From assembly GCA_002701765.1 (NCBI GenBank), contig NZXB01000014.1:22067-38571 (forward strand): DNA of 16,505 nt, in the 5' to 3' direction. The position numbers and the translations under genes are program-made. Source of the DNA: Porticoccaceae bacterium (GTDB taxonomy: Bacteria > Pseudomonadota > Gammaproteobacteria > Pseudomonadales > Porticoccaceae). The notes under the pieces are model-generated. The model had not been told where the DNA came from and did not search any database. It was given only the letters and a program-made list of their open reading frames with translations. Below are positions 2,848 to 15,634 of this stretch, in pieces (the first letter of the stretch is position 1; the number at the start of each line of letters is the position of its first letter).

Positions 2848-3627
2848 TTAGTTAATTTTGCTTGTGGTATTTCTTCGAAATTGCGCTGGCGTCATACCCG
2901 TTTTCTTTTTGAATGCGGAATAGAACGCTGAGTTTGAGTTAAAGCCAACAGCGAAGGAAATATCTAAGATTGATTGATGAGAAGCACTCATATCTCTCAG
3001 AATCAACTTTGCCTCTTCAACACGATAAGAATTAAGGAAGTCAAAAAATGTCATTTCAAATTTAGAGTTCAATATCTGTGACAAATGATTAATAGAGCAG
3101 CCCACCATGCCGGCTAAACCTGGCAATGTAAGTTCGGGTTGCATGTATACTCGTTGTTCTTCCACTAATTGGACTAAACGTCGAGAATAAAGCTCAATTC
3201 GTGCCGGATCCAGGCCAGACTTGGCGTATTTTTTTGTGGAGAACTTAGGTTCGATTAACGACTGATTCGCTATTATGCCTGCATCATAGTAATCAGCAAT
3301 TCTGAGCGCTCCTTGATCAGTAAGCGTCATGAATTCGGCTCCAAACCGACTCCTGACATTTCCCTGAACCGGAGTCATGTGATATTGAAATGCTATTGAG
3401 CCGTGACCTTTGAGGACCTCCCCCACCAATCTGTACTCATAATGATCCGCAGCAAAGTACTGCGCCAAGTCCGCCATCAAATCCCGTTGGGAAAGTTGTC
3501 TATTTGCAGGGACGTCAATATAAGTGCCATCAGCACATAAATGACCAGCCACACCGACTGGATCTCGATGATTCCAAGCTTCGAAATAACTTTCAACAAA
3601 ATGACCAGCGTGCATACGCACTCTCAT
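2848..3627 (-). CDS. AraC-family regulator with N-terminal NTF2/SnoaL-like domain
   Basis: The 259-residue protein has two parts. Residues 6 to about 125 read like an NTF2/SnoaL-like ligand pocket: HAGHFVESYFEAWNHRD at the start, then FRAME-like beta strands ending near ADYYDAG. Residues about 145-255 form an AraC DNA-binding domain: the first helix-turn-helix is about 168-190 (LPGLAGMVGCSINHLSQIL), the second about 218-250, ending with the characteristic ILDISFAVGFNSNSAFYSAFK and GMTPAQFRR. AraC proteins normally carry cupin-type sensor domains, so this fusion is less common. The ATG at 3627 lacks a clear ribosome site; an ATG at 3615 (residue 5) follows GAGAG and is an equally good start. 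It lies between the A1 flavoprotein cassette and the PuuB-like gene, so it probably controls one or both in response to a small ligand. Family assignment of the C-terminal domain is firm. Confidence 0.85.
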   Translation of the reverse strand: MRVRMHAGHFVESYFEAWNHRDPVGVAGHLCADGTYIDVPANRQLSQRDLMADLAQYFAADHYEYRLVGEVLKGHGSIAFQYHMTPVQGNVRSRFGAEFMTLTDQGALRIADYYDAGIIANQSLIEPKFSTKKYAKSGLDPARIELYSRRLVQLVEEQRVYMQPELTLPGLAGMVGCSINHLSQILNSKFEMTFFDFLNSYRVEEAKLILRDMSASHQSILDISFAVGFNSNSAFYSAFKKKTGMTPAQFRRNTTSKIN

Positions 3628-3810: not shown

Positions 3811-5001
3811 TTATGGTGGCGGAGTAATACGAGCTCTTTCAGGCGCCCAGAATGGCGATTTCTTTATTGTACATTTCGAAACCCTAGTGTGATAACGCAA
3901 TTCTTTTTGATAATTTATCTCAGCCCATATTTGTCCAGCCAGATAATCTGGTTCGACCATCGCTAGAGCTATGTTAGCCTTAACAACTGGCGACCACATG
4001 GCAGAAGTGACATACCCTATCTCCTGCCTACACTCTCTATCGCTGTAGAGAAAAGCCTCATCCGCTGGCTTGTTACCCTCTATATCAAGCTTGACAAGTT
4101 TATATGCTGGCCCTCGTTTCCGTTCCTCAAGAAGCGCCGCTCGGCCATTAAAGTGCGGCTTGTTAAAATCCACTAGCCAGTCCAGACTTAACTCAAAAGG
4201 CGTCTGATCATAACGATAGTGAACAGTCTTTAAGGCCTCATTAAACTCAATCGCAGGCATTATAAAGCCCGCCTCTAGCCGCGCCATATTGGTGGCGAAC
4301 TCACCATAAGGTTGAATCCCATAATCATCCCCAGCTGCATAGAGAGCATCCCATAGTTCCAGGGCAACTTCTGAGTTTATCCATAGCTCGTAACCAAGAT
4401 CACCAGTAAAACCAGTCCGTGACACCATAAGTTGTTGATCACTGTCACCAAAAGAAAAATGCATTATGCCAAAGGGCCTTAATGTTTCGATTCTCGAAAG
4501 ACCCATATTCTTTAAAACCTCGCATGTCATTGGGCCTTGGAACGACAATGCCGCCATCTTTTCTGAAATATCTGATAACTCTATGTCTCTAAAACCAAAA
4601 CTACTTTTTCTTAACCATGCCAAACACGGGCTACCACATGTGAGCATGAATCGATCATCTGCTAGTTTAAAAATTGTGCCATCATCAATCATTCTCCCCT
4701 CATCTGTGCACCAGCAAACATATGTTACCCGGTCGATATGAAGTTTTTTTATGTCTCTTGTAACCATTCGGTTCAGCATAGTCTCCGCATCTGCACCCTC
4801 AATGAGGTACTTTTGCATCGGGCAGATGTCATAAGTACCACACGTGTTGCGAATACAAAAATATTCATACTCTTCTTCATAATAGTAATTCGCGAACTTA
4901 TAGCCATTCCAGGCAGACCAGGCCTCACGAAAATTTAACAAGGACTGGCGCGGATGAAAGTGCGTTTCTTTCAGGCGCTCTCCAGCATAAGGATCAATCA
5001 T
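3811..5001 (-). CDS. GcvT-like folate-dependent aminomethyltransferase/demethylase A1
   Basis: The protein (396 residues from the ATG) is a member of the GcvT/aminomethyltransferase family, which transfers a one-carbon unit from an amine or ether to tetrahydrofolate. Visible landmarks are WNGYK (about 31-35), the conserved acidic pair in EGRMIDDGTI (about 101-110), ALSFQGP, the folate-barrel motif RTGFTGDLGYELW (195-207) and RLEAGF further on. The C-terminal barrel is present, so length is normal for the family. It is unlikely to be the housekeeping glycine-cleavage T protein, since no gcvH or gcvP is nearby and the family branch is different. It follows flavoprotein B1 closely and probably accepts its oxidised product. 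Start: ATG 5001 has GAGGG about 9-10 nt upstream; an upstream TTG at 5046, with GGGA 6-7 nt before it and only 9 bp from the B1 stop, would add 15 residues. Substrate unknown. Confidence 0.82.
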   Translation of the reverse strand: MIDPYAGERLKETHFHPRQSLLNFREAWSAWNGYKFANYYYEEEYEYFCIRNTCGTYDICPMQKYLIEGADAETMLNRMVTRDIKKLHIDRVTYVCWCTDEGRMIDDGTIFKLADDRFMLTCGSPCLAWLRKSSFGFRDIELSDISEKMAALSFQGPMTCEVLKNMGLSRIETLRPFGIMHFSFGDSDQQLMVSRTGFTGDLGYELWINSEVALELWDALYAAGDDYGIQPYGEFATNMARLEAGFIMPAIEFNEALKTVHYRYDQTPFELSLDWLVDFNKPHFNGRAALLEERKRGPAYKLVKLDIEGNKPADEAFLYSDRECRQEIGYVTSAMWSPVVKANIALAMVEPDYLAGQIWAEINYQKELRYHTRVSKCTIKKSPFWAPERARITPPP

Positions 5002-5055
5002 GCTTATGCACCCTCTCCAAACCTTATGAACAGATGATTTTCCCAAGTTTCTTCC

Positions 5056-6675
5056 CTATTCATCATAGAAGTCATCCTCCGGAACCGTGTTAGGTCGCTT
5101 AAGATCAATTAATATCTCACGAGCTGCGTTGGCCCCGCAGGCGGCTGACACACCTCCACCTGGGTGTGTCGAAGAGCCACACATATACATGTTTCTGATA
5201 GGCATACGATATTGCGCATAGCCGGGGAATGGTCTGTTGAATAGCAGTTGATCTATGGTCAACTCTCCCTGAAAAATGTTCCCTTCGGTCAAGCCAACCT
5301 CAGACTCAATCTCGTGAGGAGTCCGAACCTCCATATGCACTATAAGCTCCTTAAATCCTGGGCTATAGCGTTCTATTTTGTCGATAACCGTTTTGCCAAA
5401 TGCATCACGTTTTTCCGGCGTCCACGGACCCTTCGCCAACTTGGAGGGACAATACTGGATAAAGTTTGACATCCAGTGCTTCCCGGGCGGCGCGACTGTA
5501 GGATCCCAAGCGGACGGAATAACCGACTCAATAAATGGGTCATCTGACCATCGACCATGTTTCCAACAATCATAAGCTCTCTCCATAGTCTCCAAAGAAC
5601 CCACAAAGCCTTGCCCTCCGCGATTGATGTAGCGATTTTCGGGCACATTATTAAATCTCGGCAGCCCTGAAAGAGCGATGTTAACCTTGCCTGAGGATCC
5701 TCGAATTTTAAAATTCTTTGCTCGCTCGAACACACCCTCAGGCAAATCAGCTTCATTCATGCATTGAGTGAAAGTGCGCTTAGCGTCGAGGTTTGAAACG
5801 ACGATATTGGAATGCAACTCGTCTCCGTTCTCTAAAATAACGCCCGTGGCTCTGCCATTTTGAACGGAGATTTTATCAACTCCCGAATTAGTCCTTATCT
5901 CTCCGCCATATTCCTTCAGAGCTCCTGCCAGAGAGTGTGAAATTGCACCCATACCCCCTCGGGCTAGCCCCCAAGCGCCGATATTTCCATCCACATCTCC
6001 CATGACATGATGAAGAAGAATGTAGGCAGAGCCAGGAGAGTAGACACCTAGCGCTGTGCCAATAATACCGGGGCTGGCCATAGCCGCCTTTATGAGTCCG
6101 TCTTCAAAGTAATCATCAAGAAAGTCAGCAGCACTCATGGTAAAAAAACGAATATACTCGTAGAGCTCTTTTTCACCAAGGGACCAAAATTGTTTTGCCA
6201 GCCATAGTAACTCTCTGATATCCCTTACACGGAAGGAGGTCGGATTTGGGGGCGTACGCAGTAGCGTTTTTCTAATCAGCTGAGCATAGCGAGTGAGATC
6301 TGCCTGAAACCGCGACATCGCATCTGCATCGTGCGGAGAACGTCTGAAAAGCTCATTATATTCAGATTCTTCTGAGCCATAACTAGCCAACGTTTCTCCT
6401 TTGTCTCCGAACACGACGGTACCCAGATAGGGGACCAATATCAATCCATGTTTGGTCAAGTTCAGGTCACGATGAATAGCCTGACGCATCATGCTGCAAA
6501 CGTATGAGCAGCTAGAGTAAGACCATCCCGCATGCATCTCTCTTGTAACTGCCGCGCCACCAATGTAACTATTCTTTTCAAGAACTAGGACGCGCAAACC
6601 TGCCTTAGCCAGATAGGCTGCATTTGACAAGCCGTTATGTCCAGCACCAACTATAATTGCATCATGCTTCTTCAT
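5056..6675 (-). CDS. Phytoene-desaturase/PYROXD2-like FAD oxidoreductase B1
   Basis: The 539-residue protein has the N-terminal FAD Rossmann motif GAGHNG at residues 10-15, an ENSYIGG-like segment (KNSYIGGAA) after the second strand, the family motif ARGGMGAI in the middle (near residue 240), and a C-terminal FAD/active-site motif MCGSSTHPGGG followed by GANAAREIL. This is the superfamily that includes CrtI and PYROXD2, but the context is amine or one-carbon metabolism, not carotenoid synthesis. It starts 2 bp after the C1 stop and is followed closely by GcvT-like A1, so C1, B1 and A1 are surely co-transcribed. It is a clear paralogue of B2 across its whole length, including the conserved NIFQGELT and RPFPGYAQYR segments. 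I infer that it is the catalytic half of a B-C flavoprotein pair. Reaction and substrate are unknown. Confidence 0.85.
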   Translation of the reverse strand: MKKHDAIIVGAGHNGLSNAAYLAKAGLRVLVLEKNSYIGGAAVTREMHAGWSYSSCSYVCSMMRQAIHRDLNLTKHGLILVPYLGTVVFGDKGETLASYGSEESEYNELFRRSPHDADAMSRFQADLTRYAQLIRKTLLRTPPNPTSFRVRDIRELLWLAKQFWSLGEKELYEYIRFFTMSAADFLDDYFEDGLIKAAMASPGIIGTALGVYSPGSAYILLHHVMGDVDGNIGAWGLARGGMGAISHSLAGALKEYGGEIRTNSGVDKISVQNGRATGVILENGDELHSNIVVSNLDAKRTFTQCMNEADLPEGVFERAKNFKIRGSSGKVNIALSGLPRFNNVPENRYINRGGQGFVGSLETMERAYDCWKHGRWSDDPFIESVIPSAWDPTVAPPGKHWMSNFIQYCPSKLAKGPWTPEKRDAFGKTVIDKIERYSPGFKELIVHMEVRTPHEIESEVGLTEGNIFQGELTIDQLLFNRPFPGYAQYRMPIRNMYMCGSSTHPGGGVSAACGANAAREILIDLKRPNTVPEDDFYDE

Positions 6676-6677
6676 GC

Positions 6678-8243
6678 CTATTGTTCCGTCCGGAGAATTT
6701 CAATTGCGGCATTATGGCCTGGGGCTCCTGACAGGCCACCACCCGGATGGCATCCTGCCCCGCACAAGAAGAGTCCAGATATAGGGGTAGAATACTGCGC
6801 CGCCTCATACGTGGGTCGCATCATAAACATCTGATCTATAGCCATTTCGGCATGGTGCCAATGCCCGCCAGTCAAATTGTACTGATGCTCAAGGTCTTTG
6901 GGCGTAAGCAACTCACCAAAGATGATCTGCTCGCGAATACCTGGGGCATAGTGCTCAAGTAACTCTATCAGGTTTTGATAAAGGCGATCATGAGCTTCTT
7001 CTGTCCACCCTCCTTTAATCTGGTGAGGAATGTACATCACATGACCAGATAGAATATGTTTCCCCTCTGGCGCCATATCTGGATTACATAAGGTCGGCAA
7101 TATCAACTCCATGACTGGTCTATCTGAGAACTCCCCATACTTAGCATCATCATATGCAAATTCAATGCTATCCATATTTGAAACCAAAATCAGCCGCCCT
7201 AACGGGCTGTCTAACCCGGCAAAAACCGGAAGGGAATCCAAGGCCAAATGCAGCTTGGCAACGTACCCATCGCAACGCAATCGGTTGATACGGTTTGTAA
7301 AACCGATCTCCAAGTTCTCGACTCCAACCAAATCAATGAAAGTTTGTTTGGGATCAACCCCTGAAACTATTTTACGTGCATGAATAACGTCGCCATCAGC
7401 TAAAACCACCCCAACAGCTTTAACACCGTGGTCACCAGCGTCCATCAGCACTCGAGAAACAGGCTGGCCTAGCTTGAATTCGACACCCGACGACCGAGCA
7501 GATTTATACAAAGCCGTTACCAGTCCATCGATACCACTGACGGGTATCTTGGGCGCTCCAGCATCTTTTTCAGCCATTTTATAGAGAACAGAAAGAACGG
7601 TAGCATTAGGAGATCGTGGCGCCATCTTTGAACCCAGAAGGCCATCCCAACTCAGGACAGCTTTGAGCAAATCACTTTCGAAGTTTTCATCCATCAAATC
7701 ACGAATCGGCAAAGTGGCTATCCGCATGAACTCGCCCATTTCATCCTTTCCTAAAAGACGCAATTTGACCGCGAGGGCCAAAAAGGTGGTCATATCTTGG
7801 AGGTTAGCAGATCCGATTCGCGGGATAGTCTTAAGCCAAAAAGGTTTAAGCATGTCTGCAAAGGTTTGCATGCGCGCCATATATCCCGCATAGGCTTCTT
7901 CATCCTTTCCATCGAGCCCAGAGACTCTAGGTTGATCTTTTGAACTATCAAGCCTGATGCACTCCCCGTCTCGACTCAGTCCTATTGTTTGCAGAGGATA
8001 TTGCGATAAGTCTAGCCCGTGCTTCGTAAGAGATAAATCATCGATCACTTTTGATGAAAAGTTTTGGATAGTATGCGCGACGGAGGCTTTAAACCCGGGA
8101 AAGAACTCTCTGGTAGATGCAAGCCCTCCGCAATGATTGGACTGCTCAATGATTAAAACTGATCTACCCTTCTGGGCAAGATAACCGGCACAAACCATGG
8201 CATTGTGGCCAGCGCCTATGATAATTACATCAGGATCTGTCAA
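6678..8243 (-). CDS. Phytoene-desaturase/PYROXD2-like FAD oxidoreductase C1
   Basis: The 521-residue protein has an N-terminal nucleotide fold with GAGHNA at residues 10-15, where the last glycine of GxGxxG is alanine, and a C-terminal LCGAGCHPGGGLSGAPGHNAA FAD motif. It is paralogous to C2 (shared GGHWHHAEM/GGHWHHGEL and FMMRP segments) and more distant from B1/B2. The mid-protein ARGGMG motif of the B proteins is replaced by PVSGIDG. The start is forced to be a TTG at 8243: an in-frame TGA lies five codons upstream and the next ATG falls after the FAD motif. The TTG has no good ribosome site of its own, so translation may depend on coupling to a short ORF ending 11 nt upstream. B1 starts 2 bp after its stop. 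Probable role: partner subunit of B1 in oxidation of an amine-type substrate (inference). Confidence 0.83.
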   Translation of the reverse strand: MTDPDVIIIGAGHNAMVCAGYLAQKGRSVLIIEQSNHCGGLASTREFFPGFKASVAHTIQNFSSKVIDDLSLTKHGLDLSQYPLQTIGLSRDGECIRLDSSKDQPRVSGLDGKDEEAYAGYMARMQTFADMLKPFWLKTIPRIGSANLQDMTTFLALAVKLRLLGKDEMGEFMRIATLPIRDLMDENFESDLLKAVLSWDGLLGSKMAPRSPNATVLSVLYKMAEKDAGAPKIPVSGIDGLVTALYKSARSSGVEFKLGQPVSRVLMDAGDHGVKAVGVVLADGDVIHARKIVSGVDPKQTFIDLVGVENLEIGFTNRINRLRCDGYVAKLHLALDSLPVFAGLDSPLGRLILVSNMDSIEFAYDDAKYGEFSDRPVMELILPTLCNPDMAPEGKHILSGHVMYIPHQIKGGWTEEAHDRLYQNLIELLEHYAPGIREQIIFGELLTPKDLEHQYNLTGGHWHHAEMAIDQMFMMRPTYEAAQYSTPISGLFLCGAGCHPGGGLSGAPGHNAAIEILRTEQ

Positions 8244-8254
8244 AGCTAATTGGC

Positions 8255-8347
8255 CTATTCATCAATGGGCGATAGCGCAGATTCGGCAATAAAAATCTTT
8301 GTCGCTACCGATCCTGTAGGGGTAGAAAAAAACTCATTAAATTGCAC
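8255..8347 (-). CDS. Possible 30-residue leader/coupling peptide upstream of C1
   Basis: A GTG at 8347 is preceded by GAGGA with a 7-nt spacer (8359 to 8355), an excellent ribosome site, and opens 30 codons ending in TAG at 8257-8255. The GTG shares one base with the stop codon of the membrane-protein gene (TAGTG), and the ORF ends 11 nt before the weak TTG start of C1. The peptide begins VQFNEFF and ends LSPIDE; I recognise no family and see no tract of regulatory codons. It may simply couple translation between its neighbours, or it may be a chance ORF; the reading frame is open for 13 codons further upstream without a normal start. Confidence 0.3.
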   Translation of the reverse strand: MQFNEFFSTPTGSVATKIFIAESALSPIDE

Positions 8348-9078
8348 TATGTTGTCCTCGTGGAAAACATGTTTTTGTGCCGGTCAACCATGTTCACTTC
8401 GATAACTATGAACCCTACTATCCAAACAAGTTCGTCCCATGCGAACATGTAATGCCCTCTAAAAATCCAATATCCAATCGCGCACCAAAGTAGCGAGTAA
8501 AGAATAAACTTGGAACCATTGATAGTTCGAAATAAAATTCCATCGACAACTTTATGATCTTGCAACAATACAACTAGTTCTATTGTAAATAAAATCAATA
8601 GCCAAGTAATGGCCTCAGCCAAATCAATCCATGCCAACTCCCGCTCGATTGCCAATCCAGATGCATCTTGAACGATTGAAAATGTTGGAGGGTCAATGTA
8701 AAAGAAATCCTCTGCACCCGATAGCTCGGCACAATTTTCAGTACTCAGCGTGGTATAGATCAAGTTATAGGTATACGAAGCCCCATCATCGACTAACTCG
8801 CATAGATCGGAAACACCTTCGATTAACTGAGGTCTGCTTAACTCCTCAACGTAAACAGCATAGGCATAAAGGGTATGCGCTAGAGAAACATAGCAACCTA
8901 TTCGCACGGCCCGCATCATAAGTGCCTTGATGGGCGGCATAGAATTGTTAATGAAACGTGTTTCCAGTTCAAACAGTATGAGAAGGATCATCCACGCACT
9001 CTCGTCTATAGTGACGGCACATGCCCTGGTCCAAGCCAAAATACTGCTGCTGCTATTGAGTGTATGACCGTCAATCAT
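8347..9078 (-). CDS. Unrecognised integral membrane protein, about five transmembrane segments
   Basis: I do not assign this 243-residue protein to a named family. Hydrophobic segments lie at about residues 24-40, 56-76, 152-173, 189-206 and 213-231. Several carry acidic residues near their middle (FELET, TIELVV, WDELVW, VIEVNM), which is unusual and may matter for function. Residues about 80-148 form a polar loop with two cysteines (93 and 116) that could be disulfide-bonded if outside the cytoplasm. The start ATG at 9078 has no strong ribosome site; no other start looks better. It lies 253 bp after the Gfa gene and directly before the C1-B1-A1 cassette, with its stop overlapping the start of a short ORF, so it may be the first gene of that transcription unit. 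It could be a sensor or a small transporter for the cassette's substrate; both are guesses. Coding nature is supported by the coherent membrane pattern. Confidence 0.62.
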   Translation of the reverse strand: MIDGHTLNSSSSILAWTRACAVTIDESAWMILLILFELETRFINNSMPPIKALMMRAVRIGCYVSLAHTLYAYAVYVEELSRPQLIEGVSDLCELVDDGASYTYNLIYTTLSTENCAELSGAEDFFYIDPPTFSIVQDASGLAIERELAWIDLAEAITWLLILFTIELVVLLQDHKVVDGILFRTINGSKFILYSLLWCAIGYWIFRGHYMFAWDELVWIVGFIVIEVNMVDRHKNMFSTRTT

Positions 9079-9222
9079 CCAATCTTATCGCACTTAAAAG
9101 CCAAAGTTGATTAACAGAAGTCCATAGACAATCCATTTGAAATACCGCCGAGTGCCTAAAGTGTTAATTTCAAACTGAATAGCATTCGACCTCATTGATT
9201 TAACTGGATTGATTTCTGGAGA

Positions 9223-9271
9223 CTATGACCGAAGTTGGCATAGTAAAAAATAGCTCTTAGCGAGGTCATAG
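9223..9271. repeat. 8-bp inverted repeat with arms 41 bp apart in the intergenic region
   Basis: CTATGACC (9223-9230) and GGTCATAG (9264-9271) are perfect inverted copies, and a third imperfect half, GGCATAG, lies at 9237-9243. Start-to-start spacing is 41 bp, close to four helical turns. The region lies between the Gfa stop and the membrane-protein start. It could bind a regulator of the membrane-protein/C1-B1-A1 unit; the 33-nt loop and lack of a following T-tract argue against a terminator. Confidence 0.3.
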
Positions 9272-9331
9272 GCCTAGTATTGCTCCCCAATAAATCAATT
9301 ATGTTAAGAGCAAGATTTTCAAGTTCTATCC

Positions 9332-9733
9332 CTAGTTGGGAAATTCGTCAAATCTCTCGGACGTGTCATGAAACCTATGCCAAGGCGCTTTAGAGCCCAC
9401 AAAAATATGATAAGCGGTCGGAAGATTCGGGTCACCATCAATAGTGCCCATGGCAATATAATAGGTATCTGGCTCATCAGTAAGAGTCACTAAAATATTG
9501 GACCCGCAATTCCTACAAAAAACTCGCGTATGCGTGTCTGAGGAAGCATAATTGGCAACGTAAGATTGGCCGCACAGAAGAGCAAAAGAGGCCTTCTCAA
9601 CCCCTCCAAATGACGCAAAAGCCGCTCCATGCAGCCGCCGACATTGACTACAATGGCAATGTCTGAAGTCAGTTATGACTGAATTAATCTGATATTTTAT
9701 TTTGCCGCATTCACGTCGCCCGACAATCATCAT
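9332..9733 (-). CDS. Gfa/CENP-V family zinc protein (formaldehyde-activating enzyme-like)
   Basis: The 133-residue protein belongs to the Gfa-like family, whose founder (Paracoccus Gfa) was described as promoting glutathione adduct formation with formaldehyde. The catalytic-type zinc cluster CHCSQC is at residues 26-31, followed by RRLHGAAF, and the structural-site pair CRNC is at 73-76. The N-terminal GSCLCG-type motif is altered to GRRECG, so one of the four structural-zinc cysteines is an arginine (residue 7) while Cys9 is kept. The gene starts 22 bp after A2, so it is the last gene of the B2-C2-A2 operon. This fits clearance of formaldehyde released by oxidative demethylation, but many Gfa-family proteins have other or unknown roles. 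AGGTGG lies directly before the ATG at 9733, so translation may really begin at the next codon, also ATG (9730). Confidence 0.8.
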   Translation of the reverse strand: MMIVGRRECGKIKYQINSVITDFRHCHCSQCRRLHGAAFASFGGVEKASFALLCGQSYVANYASSDTHTRVFCRNCGSNILVTLTDEPDTYYIAMGTIDGDPNLPTAYHIFVGSKAPWHRFHDTSERFDEFPN

Positions 9734-9755
9734 CCACCTAGAGGTTCATTAGTCA

Positions 9756-10982
9756 TTAATATTTTTGCGGGGGCGTTGCAGAGCTTCGTTGATGAACCCA
9801 GAAAGGCTTAATAGATAGGCGACATTGCGCCCATGTGGCTCGCCACTCCAATTCTTTCTGATAATAGATTTCAGCCCAGATCTGTTTTGGTGGCGCACCC
9901 TTATCATATTCAATATCTGCCATCGACACATTCGTTTTAAGAATCGGGGACCAAACGCATGACTTGATGGTTCCTATCCTGCCACCCCCTTTGCGGTCAT
10001 ACAGAAAAGCATCCTTAGGCGGCTTATTCCCCTCAATGGAAAGCCGAACTAACTTACGCCGAATCGGCCGGGCAAATTCCGCAAACAGCGCTCGTTTTCC
10101 TGTAAAATAACATTTTTGAAGGTTAACCAACCAACCCAAACCAAGCTCATAAGGCGAGCGATCGTGGTCTGCTCTGATAGCTGTCTCGGCAGTGTTGAAA
10201 TCGTCTCCCGGCAAGATAAAGCCCGCCTCTATCCGAACCATTTCGAGGGCACCCAAGCCAGTTGGTCGGATATCGAAGAGCCCCTGCTCCTTTAGAGCAA
10301 AGATCGCATCCCAAATAGCTGAGGCATTAGAAGGATCAATCCATATCTCATAACCGAGGTCACCTGTAAAGCCCGTGCGGGATACCATGCACTCGATGCC
10401 ATTTACACGAGCATTGATCATACCAAAAGGTTTTAGCCCATTAAGCTCCTGAATGCCTGCAGCTGACAAAACGGAATAAGATGTAGGGCCTTGGACAGCT
10501 AGCGCCGCTATTGAATGTGTTTCTTCTTCAATGGTGACATCGAAACCCAAACTCGATATTAAAAGCCAGTCCAATTGATGGTGTTGGGAACAAAGACGAT
10601 ACTCACCCCCACCAAGGCTAAAAATAGTACCATCATCAAGAACCTTTCCTTCATCATTGCACCACACAACGTAAGTTACGCGGTTTGGTTGAAGCCCTGA
10701 GATATCTCTAGTTACCAATCTGTTTAGAAAATGCAGCGCATCGGGACCACCCACTCGATACTTTTCCATGGGAGTAAGATCCATAACACCGCAGGTACTT
10801 CGAATTGCAAAATATTCTGACGCTAGGGTGTCATAAGTTTTTGCTGTTTTGTATCCATTCCAAGACGCCCAGTCCTGAGTAAGAGAATAGCTGTCTACTC
10901 GATCTTGGAAAGGAGTGGGAGCTAGAACTTCCTTAAAATCGACGTGATCTGGACCAGCTTTTATAGATGACGAGCGCATCAT
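9756..10982 (-). CDS. GcvT-like folate-dependent aminomethyltransferase/demethylase A2
   Basis: The 408-residue protein is the close paralogue of A1 in the second cassette. Shared landmarks are WNGYK (41-45), SEYFAIRSTCGVMDLTPMEKY, EGKVLDDGTI with the conserved acidic pair at 116-117, LAVQGP, SRTGFTGDLGYEIW (201-214), RIEAGF and the C-terminal barrel segment VWSPILKTNVSMA. Members of this family pass a one-carbon unit to tetrahydrofolate. Its ATG overlaps the C2 stop as ATGA, a strong sign of coupled translation and stoichiometric production with the flavoproteins. The Gfa gene follows 22 bp later. The expected role is to accept the methylene or methyl group produced by the B2-C2 pair; the methyl donor is not identifiable from sequence. 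O-demethylases such as LigM and DesA belong to the same superfamily, so an ether substrate cannot be excluded. Confidence 0.85.
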   Translation of the reverse strand: MMRSSSIKAGPDHVDFKEVLAPTPFQDRVDSYSLTQDWASWNGYKTAKTYDTLASEYFAIRSTCGVMDLTPMEKYRVGGPDALHFLNRLVTRDISGLQPNRVTYVVWCNDEGKVLDDGTIFSLGGGEYRLCSQHHQLDWLLISSLGFDVTIEEETHSIAALAVQGPTSYSVLSAAGIQELNGLKPFGMINARVNGIECMVSRTGFTGDLGYEIWIDPSNASAIWDAIFALKEQGLFDIRPTGLGALEMVRIEAGFILPGDDFNTAETAIRADHDRSPYELGLGWLVNLQKCYFTGKRALFAEFARPIRRKLVRLSIEGNKPPKDAFLYDRKGGGRIGTIKSCVWSPILKTNVSMADIEYDKGAPPKQIWAEIYYQKELEWRATWAQCRLSIKPFWVHQRSSATPPQKY

Positions 10983-12532
10983 ACACGTCCTCCAAATTCA
11001 AGTATTCTATTGGCCGCGTTGTGACCAGGCACTCCTGTAATACCCCCTCCCGGATGAGTGCCAGCCCCACAAAGGAAAAGTCCCTCGATAGGGGTATCAT
11101 ATTGTGAAGCTCCAAATACAGGTCGCATCATAAAAGACTGATCGAGACTCAACTCGCCATGATGCCAGTGCCCTCCCACGTTATTATAGTTTACGCCAAT
11201 ATCTGCAGGCGTCAGCAATTTGCTTGCCTCAACATTCTCGGAAAAACCTGGCGCATATTGTTCTATGGTAGACAATACATTACCTAAGAAAACGGTTCTC
11301 AGATTATCCCAGCCCTGCTTAGGGGCACGAGGAGTATAAGTCGCAGAAACCGACACAACATGAAAGCCACTTGGTGCCAAAGTTGGATCCGCCAAGCTAG
11401 GAACAGTAATCTCTAAGACAGGGTTTTCTGAGCATTCCCCATACTTGGAATGGTTAAATGCATGCTCCACATAACGCTGATTTGGAGCGATCAGAAGTCT
11501 ATGCCGTAAGTTTTTCTGATCGAGATTTCGAAATTGAGGCAAAGCCCTCACAGCGAAAAATATCTTGGTTACGTTTCCTTCGCAACGAATATTGTCGATT
11601 CTATGGCAGAACATAGCATCTAGATTCTGCGCACCCACAAGTTCTAGGAACGTTGTTTTAACGTCTGCATTGGATACTACAATCGACGCTGACACCTCCT
11701 CGCCAGATTCGAGCAGCACACCAGTCGCTCGACCTTGTTCCACCAACACCCGCCTTACCCTCGAATTAGGTCTAAAACGCACCCCAGCTGAATCAGCCGA
11801 GTTGTAAAGCGCCTGCAGTATATCTTTACCAGTCGACAGCTCGGAGGTTGCATGAGTCTGAGCCCAAACACGATGGATATAGGTTAATACAGTGTTTGGA
11901 GTTCTCGGACCCATGTGTTGCCCCATTACTGCATCGACAGCAAGTGCGGCCTTTAAATGCCGGCTGTCAAAGTACTCGTTCAGAACATCATAAATATTGA
12001 TCCCACCCACTCGAAGAAATTCTCGCATTGAATCTGTACCCAATCCAAAACGCAAATTCCAACCAAGCCTTGCAAGAGTCTTTTTATCCTTACGATCCAT
12101 ATTCTTTAATCGCGGAGGTCTGTCAGTCATAAGCGGGTCAAGTGCTTTTGCATAGCTCGTGAACTCTTTCTTAAATTTCTTATAGGCACCGATATCTGTT
12201 TCAGAAATCTTATGACCGGACACACCATCTGAAGTCAAGATCAAATGCTCTCCCTTCACATCTAAAGCAACGCAATCAATCTTTTTAGGAGCTTTTTCAC
12301 TTTGTGGCGATAACTTAAGGTCCTTATAAATCTTTCTATTTAATCCATATGCTGCGTTAACCAGTCCCGGGGCGCGGAAGTCCTTTGCAAATTCAAACAC
12401 CCCGGCGGCGCCACCTAAAGACTCTTTTGCCTCCATAACATCTACTTGATAGCCTGCCATTGCCAGGTAGTTGGAGCAAACCATTCCATTATGCCCAGAG
12501 CCAATGACTATAACTGAAGGACGCTTAGTCAT
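10979..12532 (-). CDS. Phytoene-desaturase/PYROXD2-like FAD oxidoreductase C2
   Basis: From the ATG at 12532 the protein has 517 residues. The FAD motif GSGHNG is at residues 11-16, with the complete glycine pattern that C1 lacks, and the C-terminal motif is LCGAGTHPGGG followed by GHNAANRIL. It shares GGHWHHGEL and FMMRP with C1 and, like C1, lacks the ARGGMG motif of the B proteins (here ELSTGKD). A lysine-rich stretch follows the first FAD region (SEKAPKKIDC), absent from the others. The start is fixed by GGAGGA 8 nt upstream; a longer reading from a TTG at 12568 has no such support. The 8-bp overlap with the B2 stop and 4-bp overlap with the A2 start show tight coupling. I infer a B2 partner subunit in oxidative removal of a methyl or similar group. 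Confidence 0.84.
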   Translation of the reverse strand: MTKRPSVIVIGSGHNGMVCSNYLAMAGYQVDVMEAKESLGGAAGVFEFAKDFRAPGLVNAAYGLNRKIYKDLKLSPQSEKAPKKIDCVALDVKGEHLILTSDGVSGHKISETDIGAYKKFKKEFTSYAKALDPLMTDRPPRLKNMDRKDKKTLARLGWNLRFGLGTDSMREFLRVGGINIYDVLNEYFDSRHLKAALAVDAVMGQHMGPRTPNTVLTYIHRVWAQTHATSELSTGKDILQALYNSADSAGVRFRPNSRVRRVLVEQGRATGVLLESGEEVSASIVVSNADVKTTFLELVGAQNLDAMFCHRIDNIRCEGNVTKIFFAVRALPQFRNLDQKNLRHRLLIAPNQRYVEHAFNHSKYGECSENPVLEITVPSLADPTLAPSGFHVVSVSATYTPRAPKQGWDNLRTVFLGNVLSTIEQYAPGFSENVEASKLLTPADIGVNYNNVGGHWHHGELSLDQSFMMRPVFGASQYDTPIEGLFLCGAGTHPGGGITGVPGHNAANRILEFGGRV

Positions 12533-14138
12533 CTCCGAAATCCTCCGGAGTAGTACTTGATCTACCAAAATCTATTAATACTTCTCGTGCCGAGTTCGCT
12601 CCTGGGGCACCCATCACTCCTCCCCCCGGATGATTTGAAGAGCTACACATATACATGTTTTTTATCGGCGCTCTGTATTGCGCATAGCCAGGGAATGGGC
12701 GGTTGAACATCAATTGGTCAAGTGTTAACTCACCCTGAAAGATATTACCCTCCGTCAATCCCACTTCTGCCTCTAGCTCGCGTGGAGTGCGAATCTCAGC
12801 ATGGAGCAGCAAATCTTTAAAATTGGGACTATAGTCCGCTATCTGATTTATAACTGCGGCCCCGAAGGCATCTCTTTTACTATCGGTCCATCCGCCTTCA
12901 GCTTCCACGGGACAATATTGGACAAACACTGACATCATGTGCTTACCCGGTGGCGACATGCTAGGGTCATATTGCGTCGGAATAACCATATCTACATAGG
13001 GATCTTGGGACCATCGATCGTCCTTCCAGTCGTCATATGCTCGCTCCAGGCGCTCCAATGTATCCGTGAAATGCATGTGGCCGAGTGTGAGCGGCGAACC
13101 TTTAGGCAAGGCTGGGAAGTCAGGCATGCCATCTAAGGCAATGTTTACCTTTCCGGAGGATCCACGGATCTTAAAATTCCTTGCCCGCCGCACCAAGTCA
13201 TCCGGCAAATCACATGAATCGAGCAGGCCCAAGAATGTTCTTTTCGCATCGAGGTTGGAAATGACTGCTCGGGCCGATAATTCCTCTCCAGAAGCCAATA
13301 CCACGCCAGTTGCTCGCCCCCTTTTTACAGAAATACTTTCCACCTCGGCATTAGTTCGGATCTCGCCTCCAACGGCGCGCAAGGACGATGCGAGCGCCGA
13401 AGAAACTGAACCCATTCCACCACGAGCAAATCCCCAGGAACCGACATTACCATCCACATCACCCATGGCATGATGAAGCAGCACATAGGCTGTTCCTGGC
13501 GAGTAGACGCCAAGACCAGTACCGATAATACTTCCACCCGAAAAATGCGCCAGAATCGTGTCATTTTCGAAATACTGCTCGAGATATTCAGCAATTGACA
13601 TTGTAAAGAATCTGATAAACTCATATATCTGACTTTCACTCAGGCTGTGAAAACTTTTGAGAAGATAAGCAAACTCCATGACGTCCCTAATCTTAAAGGA
13701 CGAAGGATCGGGAGGTGTTCGCAGAAGAAAACCTCTGATCAACCGACACCACTTCATGAGATCGGCATCGAATCTGATTGATGCATCTGCGTCGCGTTTC
13801 GAGTGCCTAGCAATCTCTCTTCGCCTCACATTAGACTGATGATAGCTTCCAAAATAATCTCCATCTCGTTTGAATGTTACGCTCCCCTGCAACGGCACTA
13901 CCTCCAAACCATGACGGCCTAAATCAAGCGCTTGGTATATCTCCGGTCTAAACAGACTGCAGACGTAAGAGCAGTTGGAATATCGCCAATCTTTATGCAA
14001 CTCTAAGCTGGCTGTAGCACCTCCGATGTAATCATTTCTCTCCAAAACCAGGACTCTGAGGCCTGCTTTAGATAGAAAGGCGGCATGGGTAAGGCCGTTG
14101 TGGCCAGCTCCTATAACAATCGCATCATATGCTTTCAT
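12525..14138 (-). CDS. Phytoene-desaturase/PYROXD2-like FAD oxidoreductase B2
   Basis: The 537-residue protein has GAGHNG at residues 10-15 after a short N-terminus, NDYIGGATA, a central FARGGMGSV motif, and a C-terminal MCSSSNHPGGGV with GANSAREVLI. It aligns along its full length with B1, including LLHHxMGDVDGN, NFKIRGSSGKVNIAL, EVGLTEGNIFQGELT and RPFPGYAQYR, and both end in an acidic tail (PEDFGDD here). It is the first gene of the B2-C2-A2-Gfa operon. The ATG at 14138 has a weak ribosome site (GAG about 8 nt upstream) but is immediately before the conserved FAD motif, so the start is secure. A 12-nt-spaced inverted repeat lies about 50-70 bp upstream. Cytoplasmic flavoenzyme; the reaction is inferred from neighbours, not from any substrate-specific residue I can name. 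Confidence 0.86.
   Translation of the reverse strand: MKAYDAIVIGAGHNGLTHAAFLSKAGLRVLVLERNDYIGGATASLELHKDWRYSNCSYVCSLFRPEIYQALDLGRHGLEVVPLQGSVTFKRDGDYFGSYHQSNVRRREIARHSKRDADASIRFDADLMKWCRLIRGFLLRTPPDPSSFKIRDVMEFAYLLKSFHSLSESQIYEFIRFFTMSIAEYLEQYFENDTILAHFSGGSIIGTGLGVYSPGTAYVLLHHAMGDVDGNVGSWGFARGGMGSVSSALASSLRAVGGEIRTNAEVESISVKRGRATGVVLASGEELSARAVISNLDAKRTFLGLLDSCDLPDDLVRRARNFKIRGSSGKVNIALDGMPDFPALPKGSPLTLGHMHFTDTLERLERAYDDWKDDRWSQDPYVDMVIPTQYDPSMSPPGKHMMSVFVQYCPVEAEGGWTDSKRDAFGAAVINQIADYSPNFKDLLLHAEIRTPRELEAEVGLTEGNIFQGELTLDQLMFNRPFPGYAQYRAPIKNMYMCSSSNHPGGGVMGAPGANSAREVLIDFGRSSTTPEDFGDD
12541..12546 (-). promoter_or_regulatory. Ribosome binding site that fixes the C2 start
   Basis: GGAGGA on the minus strand lies 8 nt before the ATG at 12532, inside the 3' end of B2. 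It makes this ATG far more likely than the TTG at 12568 that opens a longer frame. Confidence 0.6.
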
Positions 14139-14186
14139 GCTTACTCAACTAAATATTGGAACTTACAATAATTCCCCAAGACATTC

Positions 14187-14210
14187 TGGTGATTCGGCAT
14201 GCAGTCACCA
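14187..14210. promoter_or_regulatory. Inverted repeat upstream of B2, candidate operator
   Basis: TGGTGA (14187-14192) and TCACCA (14205-14210) are perfect inverted copies separated by 12 nt that include GCATGC. It lies about 50 bp above the B2 ATG in the 284-bp gap after A3. The arm size and spacing suit a dimeric regulator. I found no convincing -35/-10 pair for B2; an isolated TTGACA at 14291-14286 has no matching -10 box. Nothing else stands out in this gap. Confidence 0.35.
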
Positions 14211-14422
14211 CAGATATTCATGAGGCAAGAACCATTTCTACTGCAACAATGACTAGCAAAAGCCATCAGTCTAAAACCTAACATCTGTCAAATGGGCTTG
14301 TTTTGCGAAGTGTAACCTATCTGATAACTCTCCGCTTACACAAAAAGGTATCTCCCCGGCACTTGGTCCTGACCATTCCACACTGTCGAAAAAGCAGCTC
14401 TATGTAATATCTACTCTATTCA

Positions 14423-15634
14423 TTAATGCTTTTCTATTTTAGCAGGGATTTCGTTCCGGCGAACCAGTTCCAAATGAGGCTCGCGACCGAGCGTGACGTA
14501 ATATTTTTCGCCATTTGCCCCAAAAAGAATAGCCTCTCCTAGATTTCTATACTTAGACGAGACCGAGGCATTACCTATGAACTTGCCCAAACCCCAAGAC
14601 CAAGCAGAACTAGTGACCATCCCGATACAGACCTCCTCGTCACCAATGTTTGCGTATAGTTGACCAGCGTCTTCCAAATCTAGGTCAACATCAGTTTTTA
14701 TTGTTCTCTTAAACCACTTCTGCCCATTTTTCTGTTCCCGCTGAAGCGCAGCTTTGCCCACGAAGTTCCCACCTTCTAGATCTACCATCCAACCCAATCC
14801 GACCTCAAATGGTGACCGCTTCAAGTCCAAGTCCAGATCCAGTTCTGTCGAAAAATCCCAACCGGCAACCACATAGCCACCTTCAAGACGACAGACCTCC
14901 AACGCATCAAGGCCATATCCGGGTAATGGAATTCCTAATTTACGACGAGCTAGTTCGATACGAGTTATCAGTTCTCTGACCAAAGAGGGGTTAAACCAAC
15001 ACTCATAACCCAAGTCTGCAGTAAAACCCATCCGCGCCAACTGGATGACCGAATCGTCAAGAGAGATCTCGACAAACTCAAAAGGCTTGATTAATTCAAC
15101 ATCGTCGAAACCCATTGCATGCAGAACAGTCGCCGACAATGGACCTTGAAGAGCAAGGCCTGACCACTCATGGGTGCACTCCTGAATTGTCACGTCATCC
15201 TCATCAATGCATAATTTTTCTCGAATAGAATCGAAATGCAAACTGTGATCAATATCAGATGGCATTAAGAGGAAATGCTCGTCAGAGAACTTGTATAAGA
15301 TCGAATCATCTTTAAGCATGCCATCAGCGTCACAAAAAGCGACATACCCGCCACGCATTGATTGCATAGCGCTTACTGGGCGAGTCAAAACAGTGTCAAG
15401 CAAAGTGCCAGCTGCCTTGCCAGATAGATGTATTTTTCGCATGGGCGAAACATCAAATAATGCACACTCATTTCGAATGGCTTGATATTCTTCCTGCGAG
15501 TCTCCATAGCAAGCGGGTAAAAGAAAATCATTCCAATTGATGTAATCTATATTCTCACAGCCATCACTCAGGAGTGCTTTGAAACCCGTGTCAGATTGAC
15601 GATTGAAGAAGTCAAAAAATACGCTTTTTTTCAT
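14423..15634 (-). CDS. Divergent GcvT-like aminomethyltransferase A3
   Basis: This 403-residue GcvT-family protein keeps YQAIRNECALFDVSPMRK, the conserved acidic pair in DGMLKDDSIL (109-110), LALQGP, and RLEGGY. It departs from A1 and A2 at several points: the WNGYK motif is absent, the folate-barrel motif is RMGFTADLGYECW (201-213) with Thr to Met and Gly to Ala changes, and TRDI is TRPV. A loop carries alternating Asp-Leu residues (STELDLDLDLKRS), encoded by a short tandem repeat. It is separated by 284 bp from B2 and by 232 bp from the yheS-like gene, so it is probably its own unit or the loosely linked first gene of the B2 operon. It probably transfers one-carbon units from a related but different substrate, or serves as an alternative partner for the flavoprotein pairs. 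The start at 15634 is the only ATG consistent with family length. Confidence 0.8.
   Translation of the reverse strand: MKKSVFFDFFNRQSDTGFKALLSDGCENIDYINWNDFLLPACYGDSQEEYQAIRNECALFDVSPMRKIHLSGKAAGTLLDTVLTRPVSAMQSMRGGYVAFCDADGMLKDDSILYKFSDEHFLLMPSDIDHSLHFDSIREKLCIDEDDVTIQECTHEWSGLALQGPLSATVLHAMGFDDVELIKPFEFVEISLDDSVIQLARMGFTADLGYECWFNPSLVRELITRIELARRKLGIPLPGYGLDALEVCRLEGGYVVAGWDFSTELDLDLDLKRSPFEVGLGWMVDLEGGNFVGKAALQREQKNGQKWFKRTIKTDVDLDLEDAGQLYANIGDEEVCIGMVTSSAWSWGLGKFIGNASVSSKYRNLGEAILFGANGEKYYVTLGREPHLELVRRNEIPAKIEKH
14820..14846 (-). repeat. Short in-frame tandem repeat encoding alternating Leu-Asp in A3
   Basis: Successive hexamers of the form CTG/TTG-GAT/GAC encode ELDLDLDLK. Neighbouring paralogues A1 and A2 have unrelated residues at this loop, so the stretch probably arose by local expansion. 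Confidence 0.4.

Follow-up and report, generated by a model that had tools for sequence, protein, structure and literature searches.

Flavin-driven N-demethylation coupled to folate is known from dimethylglycine dehydrogenase (DMGDH), dimethylglycine oxidase (DMGO), sarcosine dehydrogenase (SarDH) and the sarcosine oxidase SoxBDAG, in which flavin amine oxidation is joined to a GcvT-type folate domain. In DMGDH and SarDH the flavin oxidizes an N-methyl group to an iminium, of which the GcvT-type domain makes methylene-tetrahydrofolate (methylene-THF). The flavin part of these enzymes has the DAO fold, and in DMGDH it is fused to GcvT. GcvT-like O- and S-demethylases without flavin partners exist as well, and for the free-standing DMSP demethylase DmdA we know of no flavin partner. 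Here we analyse a stretch of 16,505 nucleotides (the window; bases 22067-38571 of contig C80) from a Porticoccaceae metagenome-assembled genome (MAG) of 2.07 Mb and 78.6% completeness, in which two flavoproteins, B and C, twice accompany a GcvT-like protein, A. Named relatives point to the SAR92/Porticoccaceae clade as the source of the genome, whose B3 protein is 91% identical to its counterpart in Porticoccaceae bacterium AG-905-B21. We tentatively read the B-C-A unit as a split flavin-driven, tetrahydrofolate-coupled N-demethylase of N-methylated di- or polyamine-like amines, and give this reading somewhat less than an even chance. On this reading the unit would carry out flavin/folate N-demethylation in a split architecture and with a different flavin partner.

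The B-C-A triplets and their conservation

All window genes considered here lie on the minus strand. The first triplet, type 1, consists of B1 (12525-14138, 537 amino acids (aa)), C1 (10979-12568, 529 aa from the listed TTG start) and A1 (9756-10982, 408 aa); the second, type 2, is transcribed in the order C2 (6678-8243), B2 (5056-6675) and A2 (3811-5046). B and C denote PYROXD2/CrtO-like FAD flavoproteins, and the names B and C in an earlier note on this DNA apparently correspond to our C and B. A1 and C1 overlap by 4 bp, and gaps of 2 and 9 bp separate C2 from B2 and B2 from A2. C1 and B1 overlap by 44 bp with the TTG start and by 8 bp with an in-frame ATG at 12532, the likely start of C1. 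The earlier note had described two triplets with overlaps of 4 and 8 bp or gaps of 2-9 bp, and these couplings hold, the 8 bp one with the in-frame ATG. The range that it gave takes in the gene at 14423-15634 too. This gene, A0, is a third, divergent GcvT-like one lying 284 bp from B1, and is neither tightly coupled nor a strict member of the triplet. Furthermore, what had been called a twice-present module is indeed present as two triplets in the window, but a third triplet, B3-C3-A3, was found on contig C15. A GCV_T search of the whole MAG gave six places, namely three in the window, triplet 3, an 840-aa frame on C91 and a short match on C5; in this 78.6% of a genome it showed no clear free-standing canonical GcvT. 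The paralogues have diverged to different degrees: B1 and B2 share 59% identity (B2 against B1 and B3, 59-61%), C1 and C2 39% (C2 against C1 and C3, 39-40%), and A1 and A2 45% (A2 against A1 and A3, 44-45%), while B against C gives about 28-35%.

B, C and A also occur together outside this genome, as the earlier note had expected. A scan of genome contigs with B3 returned 373 relatives, the best 80 of which were kept as loci of unequal length, labelled Gammaproteobacteria, a subgroup thereof or just Proteobacteria. C comes next after B in 79 of the 80 (L043 ends with B), and the triplet is present at each of the 68 loci that extend more than 3.5 kb beyond B. A was called directly as an open reading frame (ORF) in 63 of these 68 and through tblastn in three where an antisense ORF masked it (L035, L036, L054); the remaining two have split ORFs for C, or for C and A (L068, L078). 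Among 78 genomes, our own and its relatives, which were searched for B and A with no separate search for C, the 11 that contain B (E<=1e-130) are the same 11 that contain A (E<=1e-50). Going by the listed coordinates, the 25 copies of B and 25 of A form pairs, each on one contig and less than 1.7 kb apart, and the two unpaired A matches are A0 itself and one in G193. Across the phylum, 398 genomes yielded B (E<=1e-150) in ten besides our own, five of them from one genus, and C and A adjoin it in all ten. The unit is patchy, since B at 56% identity or more occurs in just three genomes besides our own in a class-level sample of 185.

In every one of 85 complete triplets (81 distinct), B, C and A have the same best-match type, which is type 3 in 71, type 1 in nine and type 2 in five. 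The gene order is B-C-A in 81 and C-B-A in four, all four being type 2. In the trees, types 1 and 2 form clades for A, B and C; type 3 forms a clade for A and B, and not for C. As the types agree throughout, the three genes have been duplicated together and inherited as a unit.

Some carriers hold the unit on plasmids (Shinella zoogloeoides, Rhizobium sp. SL42, Parasedimentitalea marina and Fuscovulum ytuae), where a TetR regulator and an ABC transporter are encoded near it, together with a Rieske protein and a class III aminotransferase. The ATPase and permease of the Shinella transporter match spermidine/putrescine models best, and its binding protein is weakly PotD. The NADH:flavin oxidoreductase next to the triplet in Shinella was considered as a known type of amine demethylase and dropped, its best NCBIfam match being a mycofactocin-system OYE model below cut-off. 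Distant B-like plasmid genes (33-38% identity) are generally not beside C or GcvT in the five neighbourhoods that were read; Shinella sumterensis has an adjacent gcvT, and one other has an aminomethyltransferase about 9 kb off. On the S. sumterensis plasmid (L089 10001-12752) a single B-like flavoprotein (38%) lies immediately upstream of the annotated gcvT, near genes for an acyl-CoA ligase, an enoyl-CoA hydratase and 3-keto-5-aminohexanoate cleavage. This pair is perhaps a two-gene relative of B-C-A. A scan of viral contigs with B1 gave three stretches fitting a pattern, none of which encodes a relative.

The flavoproteins B and C

B and C match FAD and amine-oxidase Pfam families. B1, B2, C1 and C2 reach 28.5-56.4 bits on PF01593 against a cut-off of 19.8 (for C1 no single stretch passed), and they carry the GxxxK lysine that, together with such a score, we took to mark the flavin amine oxidase superfamily. 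All 52 B and all 35 C sequences compared have this lysine, and in three of three MAFFT modes it aligns to the GxxxK lysine of one amine oxidase. The hhalign alignment of the B and C profiles with the amine oxidase is confined to the N-terminal FAD part and so speaks neither for nor against the alignment of the lysine. The fold matches of B and C include putrescine oxidase and monoamine oxidases (the comparison for C1 was made by VIA-align). We place B and C in the PYROXD2/CrtI branch of the flavin amine-oxidase superfamily, their nearest relatives being in another branch than the DAO-fold DMGDH and sarcosine oxidase. The earlier note had likewise set these flavoproteins apart from those two enzymes, which agrees with their nearest folds being CrtI-type.

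B and C share their fold and FAD motifs with the CrtO, CrtI and PYROXD2 flavoproteins, and one might suppose them to be carotenoid- or lipid-type desaturases. The nearest solved fold for both is the gamma-carotene desaturase 4rep, and B has at least 8000 relatives at E<=1e-60, many of which their source annotations name phytoene dehydrogenase-like. We find this hardly credible. The best NCBIfam model for B and C, CrtO (NF045689), gives 209-276 bits against a cut-off of 1000, far too low, and crtI_fam (TIGR02734) gives B1, B2, C1 and C2 91-121 bits against 238.1. At the position of the invariant lysine, which is that of the amine oxidases, CrtI 4dgk has another residue. The partners of B and C are amine-catabolic, and no carotenoid gene stands among the classified neighbours, many neighbours being left unclassified. 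The known flavoproteins of this branch also differ from the present ones in that here two paralogues are paired with a GcvT-like gene.

The GcvT-like protein A

A0, A1 and A2 match PF01571 with 153-199 bits against a gathering cut-off of 25.6 (E 8e-45, 8e-59 and 4e-54; A2 also matches PF08669, E 7e-10), which bears out the GcvT-type partner proposed earlier. A1-A3 are 393-411 aa long and consist of GcvT domains only. The gcvT equivalog TIGR00528 (cut-off 235.85 bits) gives A1 158.3, A2 147.7, A3 168.5 and A0 133.1, all too low. In the Protein Data Bank (PDB), A1 matches GcvT domains of the DMGDH, DMGO, SarDH and SoxBDAG group (2gag, 1pj5, 4p9s) and also 9q5a. Compared with DMGDH and SarDH, two PYROXD2/CrtI-type flavoproteins and a separate GcvT-like gene stand here in place of one chain, and none of A1-A3, B or C has a DAO-fold flavin part fused to GcvT. 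Among NCBIfam models, A1-A3 match best along the C-terminal part of the one for trimethylamine N-oxide (TMAO) demethylase (Tdm), with 236-272 bits (A1 235.7), and 9q5a is the corresponding structural match of A1. A0-A3 fall within positions 384-761 of the 763 of the full-length model NF053776 (145-272 bits, cut-off 1100), and the N-terminal half of Tdm is absent from the A proteins. In all, A, B and C pass the broad superfamily models PF01571 and PF01593 and none of the curated equivalog cut-offs that were tried.

It could be argued that A is instead a redox-neutral DmdA- or LigM-like methyltransferase forming 5-methyl-THF, with B and C catalysing a separate dehydrogenation in the same pathway. 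Flavin-free GcvT-like O- and S-demethylases provide a precedent, and A does score on the DmdA model NF009133 (A1 113, A2 135, A3 143 and A0 103 bits). These scores are nevertheless well short of its cut-off of 410, the GcvT DD motif is retained in A0-A3 whereas four aligned DmdA-type proteins have ND, and A, being paired 1:1 and co-duplicated with B and C, is more easily seen as part of one enzyme than as a separate step. We consider this alternative improbable.

Genomic context of the triplets

The context of the triplets is often that of polyamine catabolism, with spermidine dehydrogenase (SpdH) beside type 1 and PotFGHI, a gamma-glutamyl-type synthetase, a DAO oxidase, an aminotransferase and a Rieske protein beside type 3. 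Locus L093 has B1-C1-A1, a DAO oxidase, SpdH and a hydroxylase-like gene on a single strand, with gaps after A1 of 38, 61 and 59 bp, and L092 is similar (184, 69 and 54 bp). In L007 B3-C3-A3 is followed on a single strand by an ADP-forming acyl-CoA ligase (ACD), a glutamine-synthetase-like protein (GS), a Rieske protein, a DAO oxidase, an amidotransferase and an aminotransferase, at spacings between an overlap of 20 bp and a distance of 100 bp. A PotFGHI-type transporter is encoded divergently, as are an acyl-CoA dehydrogenase and a BetI-like regulator. The same run, from the ADP-forming acyl-CoA ligase and the glutamine-synthetase-like protein to the Rieske oxygenase and the DAO oxidase, exists in the genome of the window, on C15. 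It continues there with a class-I amidotransferase and a class III aminotransferase, then an agmatinase above cut-off, a TetR-type regulator and further aminotransferases. Further on come a transporter-like protein, which has no NCBIfam match, an aldehyde dehydrogenase and a PuuD-like PF07722 hydrolase, and after these a second GS-like protein and one more aminotransferase. Upstream of triplet 3, a TonB receptor and an MFS transporter are encoded together with a TPR-sulfotransferase and an amidohydrolase.

Neighbours in the 80 loci were counted by best BLAST match to labelled reference genes, with many neighbours remaining unlabelled, and because the loci are of unequal length the counts are lower bounds. 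A Rieske protein is found in at least 56 loci, and in 51 of the 61 with at least 8 kb after B. Class III aminotransferases (at least 31), GS-like proteins (at least 28), acyl-CoA dehydrogenases (at least 20), acyl-CoA ligases and DAO oxidases (at least 19 each), amidotransferases (at least 16) and agmatinases (at least 4) follow. The neighbours resemble gamma-glutamylputrescine synthetase, PuuD, aminotransferases, PotFGHI and SpdH, although several are under the equivalog cut-offs and the linked PotF lacks Glu185. To our knowledge, Puu operons do not hold B-C-A or Rieske genes.

This polyamine context, and putrescine oxidase among the fold matches, would also suit an enzyme in which B and C oxidize or dehydrogenate unmethylated polyamines while A scavenges stray formaldehyde or has lost catalysis. 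We think this improbable. Unmethylated polyamines give no one-carbon unit, yet B and C come with a GcvT-like gene at each locus long enough to hold one and in 25 of 25 copies, a demethylase-class Rieske protein is present in those 51 of 61 loci, and the linked PotF has lost Glu185.

As to the Rieske partner, the demethylase 4qup, which we take to be the stachydrine demethylase Stc2, is among its three nearest solved structures, and its best NCBIfam model is GbcA (NF058607), with 263.9 bits against a cut-off of 670. It is of the same class as Stc2 and GbcA, but misses the GbcA cut-off. The Rieske partner in Shinella belongs to another subfamily (33% over 201 aa).

The linked PotF-type transport proteins

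A PotF- or PotFa-type transport protein lies within 20 kb of the triplet in eight of the ten phylum-wide genomes (seven PotFa, one PotF). According to PMC8666671, E. coli PotF has a proximal amine site (S38, D39, D247), an aromatic box (W37, W244, F276) and a distal site (S85, S87, A182, E185, D278, L348), and D247, D278, E185 and D39 are at least 96% conserved in 250 PotF homologues. We compared 27 distinct triplet-linked PotF-type proteins, 26 gammaproteobacterial and one alphaproteobacterial, leaving out L085-L087 as another branch. W37, D39, W244, D247, D278 and Y314 are kept in all 27. Glu185 is found in none of them, its place being taken by Ser in 14, Thr in seven and Asp in six; of the four residues D39, D247, D278 and E185, all acidic in PotF, only the first three are thus kept. 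Among 14 distinct unlinked homologues, of which 13 come from genomes lacking B and one lies on a different contig of G241 (duplicates counted once), position 185 is Glu in 13 and Asp in one; the linked PotF of G240 has Asp. Judged by these alignments, the triplet-linked PotF keeps the primary-amine end intact and has lost the far glutamate, which fits a predicted diamine ligand with a methylated second nitrogen.

The transporter also bears on the possibility that B-C-A is a dimethylglycine/sarcosine-type step of betaine or carnitine catabolism, in which the Rieske protein demethylates glycine betaine and B-C-A replaces DMGDH and SarDH. The best match of the Rieske protein to GbcA (264 bits), with no other GbcA above cut-off among the MAG proteins, a BetI-like regulator adjoining a triplet, and BCCT and BKACE genes near triplet 3 in our genome all speak for it. 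The Rieske protein, however, misses the GbcA cut-off of 670, polyamine-type enzymes stand in the same runs, and elsewhere in the genome there is a protein of 837 aa that combines a GcvT domain with an N-terminal FAD motif and looks DMGDH-like by eye. Moreover, the linked gammaproteobacterial transporters are PotF-type with an intact primary-amine site, and since glycine betaine has no primary amine it should not use them. We regard this alternative as unlikely. Of the substrates suggested in the earlier note, N-methyl polyamines would fit the neighbourhood best, and glycine betaine derivatives appear less likely.

In L150 (8756-15721), L059 (286-8377) and other Halieaceae loci, triplets at which no PotFGHI was seen have a cassette beside them that encodes a TonB receptor, a TPR-sulfotransferase and an amidohydrolase, as well as a protein of 312 aa without Pfam match. 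This cassette might import a larger substrate.

Proposed function

In the N-demethylase that we propose, B and C, with FAD and of the PYROXD2/CrtI branch, would dehydrogenate a cationic di- or polyamine-like substrate at an N-methyl group, and A would trap the methylene, as iminium or formaldehyde, on tetrahydrofolate to give 5,10-methylene-THF. One of the two flavoproteins may oxidize the methyl group while the other may pass electrons or bind another part of the substrate. B, C and A would thus do in split form what the fused DMGDH, SarDH and TMAO demethylase do in one chain. The heteromer, the use of folate, demethylation and the substrate are what we infer from the sequences and their neighbourhoods. 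The three paralogous triplets may serve different substrates or N-positions. For type 3, the Rieske oxygenase would remove the first methyl from a quaternary nitrogen, and the freed amine would then enter a route of gamma-glutamyl (Puu-like) and transaminase steps. Type 1 would work beside the DAO oxidase and spermidine dehydrogenase. The Puu-like enzymes, aminotransferases and SpdH would then degrade the carbon skeleton.

Several observations weigh against this proposal. With respect to the flavoproteins, 4rep is well ahead of the other solved folds, and putrescine oxidase ranks ninth, behind also two uncharacterised archaeal oxidoreductases and renalase. The lysine is weakened as a mark of the triplet and appears general in the flavoprotein group: 26 further B/C-type sequences, which include distant B-like ones without C or A, have 22 Lys and 4 Arg. 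With respect to the neighbourhoods, no Rieske protein is shown in ten of the 61 loci with at least 8 kb after B, and there is none in the window itself. The GS-like partner has 217 bits against a cut-off of 650 and the PuuD-like one 178 against 266 (NCBIfam), and the best match of the DAO proteins is never a Puu model. In our genome the distance from triplet 3 to the carnitine-type BCCT and BKACE genes is 14-15 kb. Only 26 of the 80 loci, whose lengths differ, show two or more Pot genes; in many Halieaceae loci the place of Pot is taken by a TonB receptor, an MFS transporter, an amidohydrolase and a TPR-sulfotransferase; and no PotF-type protein was seen in the 78.6% complete MAG of the window. 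With respect to PotF, the loss of Glu185 may be one ancestral, inherited change in a transporter clade, and the six linked proteins with Asp at this position have a carboxylate there. In L085-L087, three alphaproteobacterial plasmids, the transport proteins are of another branch that lacks the D247 motif. One of these that was tested is weakly PotD-like (86 bits against 582), and the PotFa-type proteins of these plasmids have Asp in the Glu185 column.

The literature holds no named counterpart that we could find, in line with the earlier note, which knew of none: full-text searches on PYROXD2/GcvT, homarine and polyamines gave no description of a B-C-A triplet, the 2026 homarine pathway being outside their coverage. 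In one sentence of PMC13390433, Mgd takes part in the homarine pathway. A passage search of PMC8437039, on SAR11 polyamine use, gave none of six terms such as GcvT and demethyl. PMC3160333 reports two GcvT-like genes of unassigned function, one beside a monomeric sarcosine oxidase gene, and the word phytoene is absent from its passages.

A wider proposal is that the three B-C-A enzymes, the Rieske protein, the altered PotF or TonB uptake and the Puu-like route make up a pathway of their own, through which marine gammaproteobacteria would feed on polyamines that are N-methylated and possibly long-chain, for instance from diatom silica, and would pass the methyl groups to the folate pool, with B-C-A as an undescribed class of split flavin/folate N-demethylase. 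We hold this to be doubtful as a whole. Diatom long-chain polyamines, whose degree of methylation varies by species according to PMC12206195, are a possible source of substrate. Diatoms cannot be its sole origin, because the carrier Rhizobium sp. SL42 comes from root nodules.

Other genes of the window

The window is transcribed in the order ATPase fragment, A0, B1, C1, A1, GFA protein, hydrophobic protein, C2, B2, A2, AraC regulator, DAO oxidase and SpdH; its high-side edge is the contig end and its low-side edge lies inside the SpdH homologue. The ABC-transporter-type ATPase fragment upstream of A0 is truncated by the contig end. A0 is 31-33% identical to A1-A3. In L091 too it precedes B1, as it does in L092 in the form of split ORFs. 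More generally, A0-type genes were seen before B1 or alone, without B and C of their own (the window; L110, which is contig C5 of G193).

Downstream of A1 lies a gene for a GFA-family protein (9332-9733; PF04828, glutathione-dependent formaldehyde-activating-like), which adjoins A1 in six of nine type-1 triplets, the window's own counted. It is followed by a hydrophobic protein of 243 aa (8347-9078) without Pfam or NCBIfam match. Relatives of the latter recur by triplets of more than one type (L005, L014, L025, L026, L044, L150 and others), and it is possibly a membrane partner. The AraC-family regulator downstream of A2 (2848-3627) has relatives adjoining A2 in L091 and L099 and two ORFs off in L105. 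Its N-terminus has a weak SgcJ/EcaC-type match (TIGR02246, 20.9 bits against a cut-off of 33.95), an unusual sensor domain if real. The DAO-family flavin oxidase (1380-2669; PF01266, E 8e-69) has L-pipecolate oxidase as its best NCBIfam match (NF050086, 196 bits against a cut-off of 600), and its relatives lie downstream of B1-C1-A1 on the same strand in L092 and L093.

The SpdH homologue (1-1311), with a twin-arginine-like N-terminus, runs past the window edge and continues at L001 18450-19499. Its windowed part matches SpdH of PDB 7d9f (E 4.1e-93, residues 15-436 of 436) and, judged on this part, belongs to the SpdH family. An aspartyl/asparaginyl beta-hydroxylase-like protein recurs beside SpdH and triplets in many loci (L001 17797-18390, adjoining the SpdH gene of the window; L020 4936-5499, the latter copy matching PF05118).

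Implications

If the proposed N-demethylation is true, it would provide a function for a large flavoprotein group now named phytoene dehydrogenase-like, the at least 8000 relatives of B at E<=1e-60. It would also link methylated amines or polyamines to one-carbon metabolism in SAR92, Halieaceae and rhizobia, and a testable prediction follows on the ligand of the altered PotF proteins.

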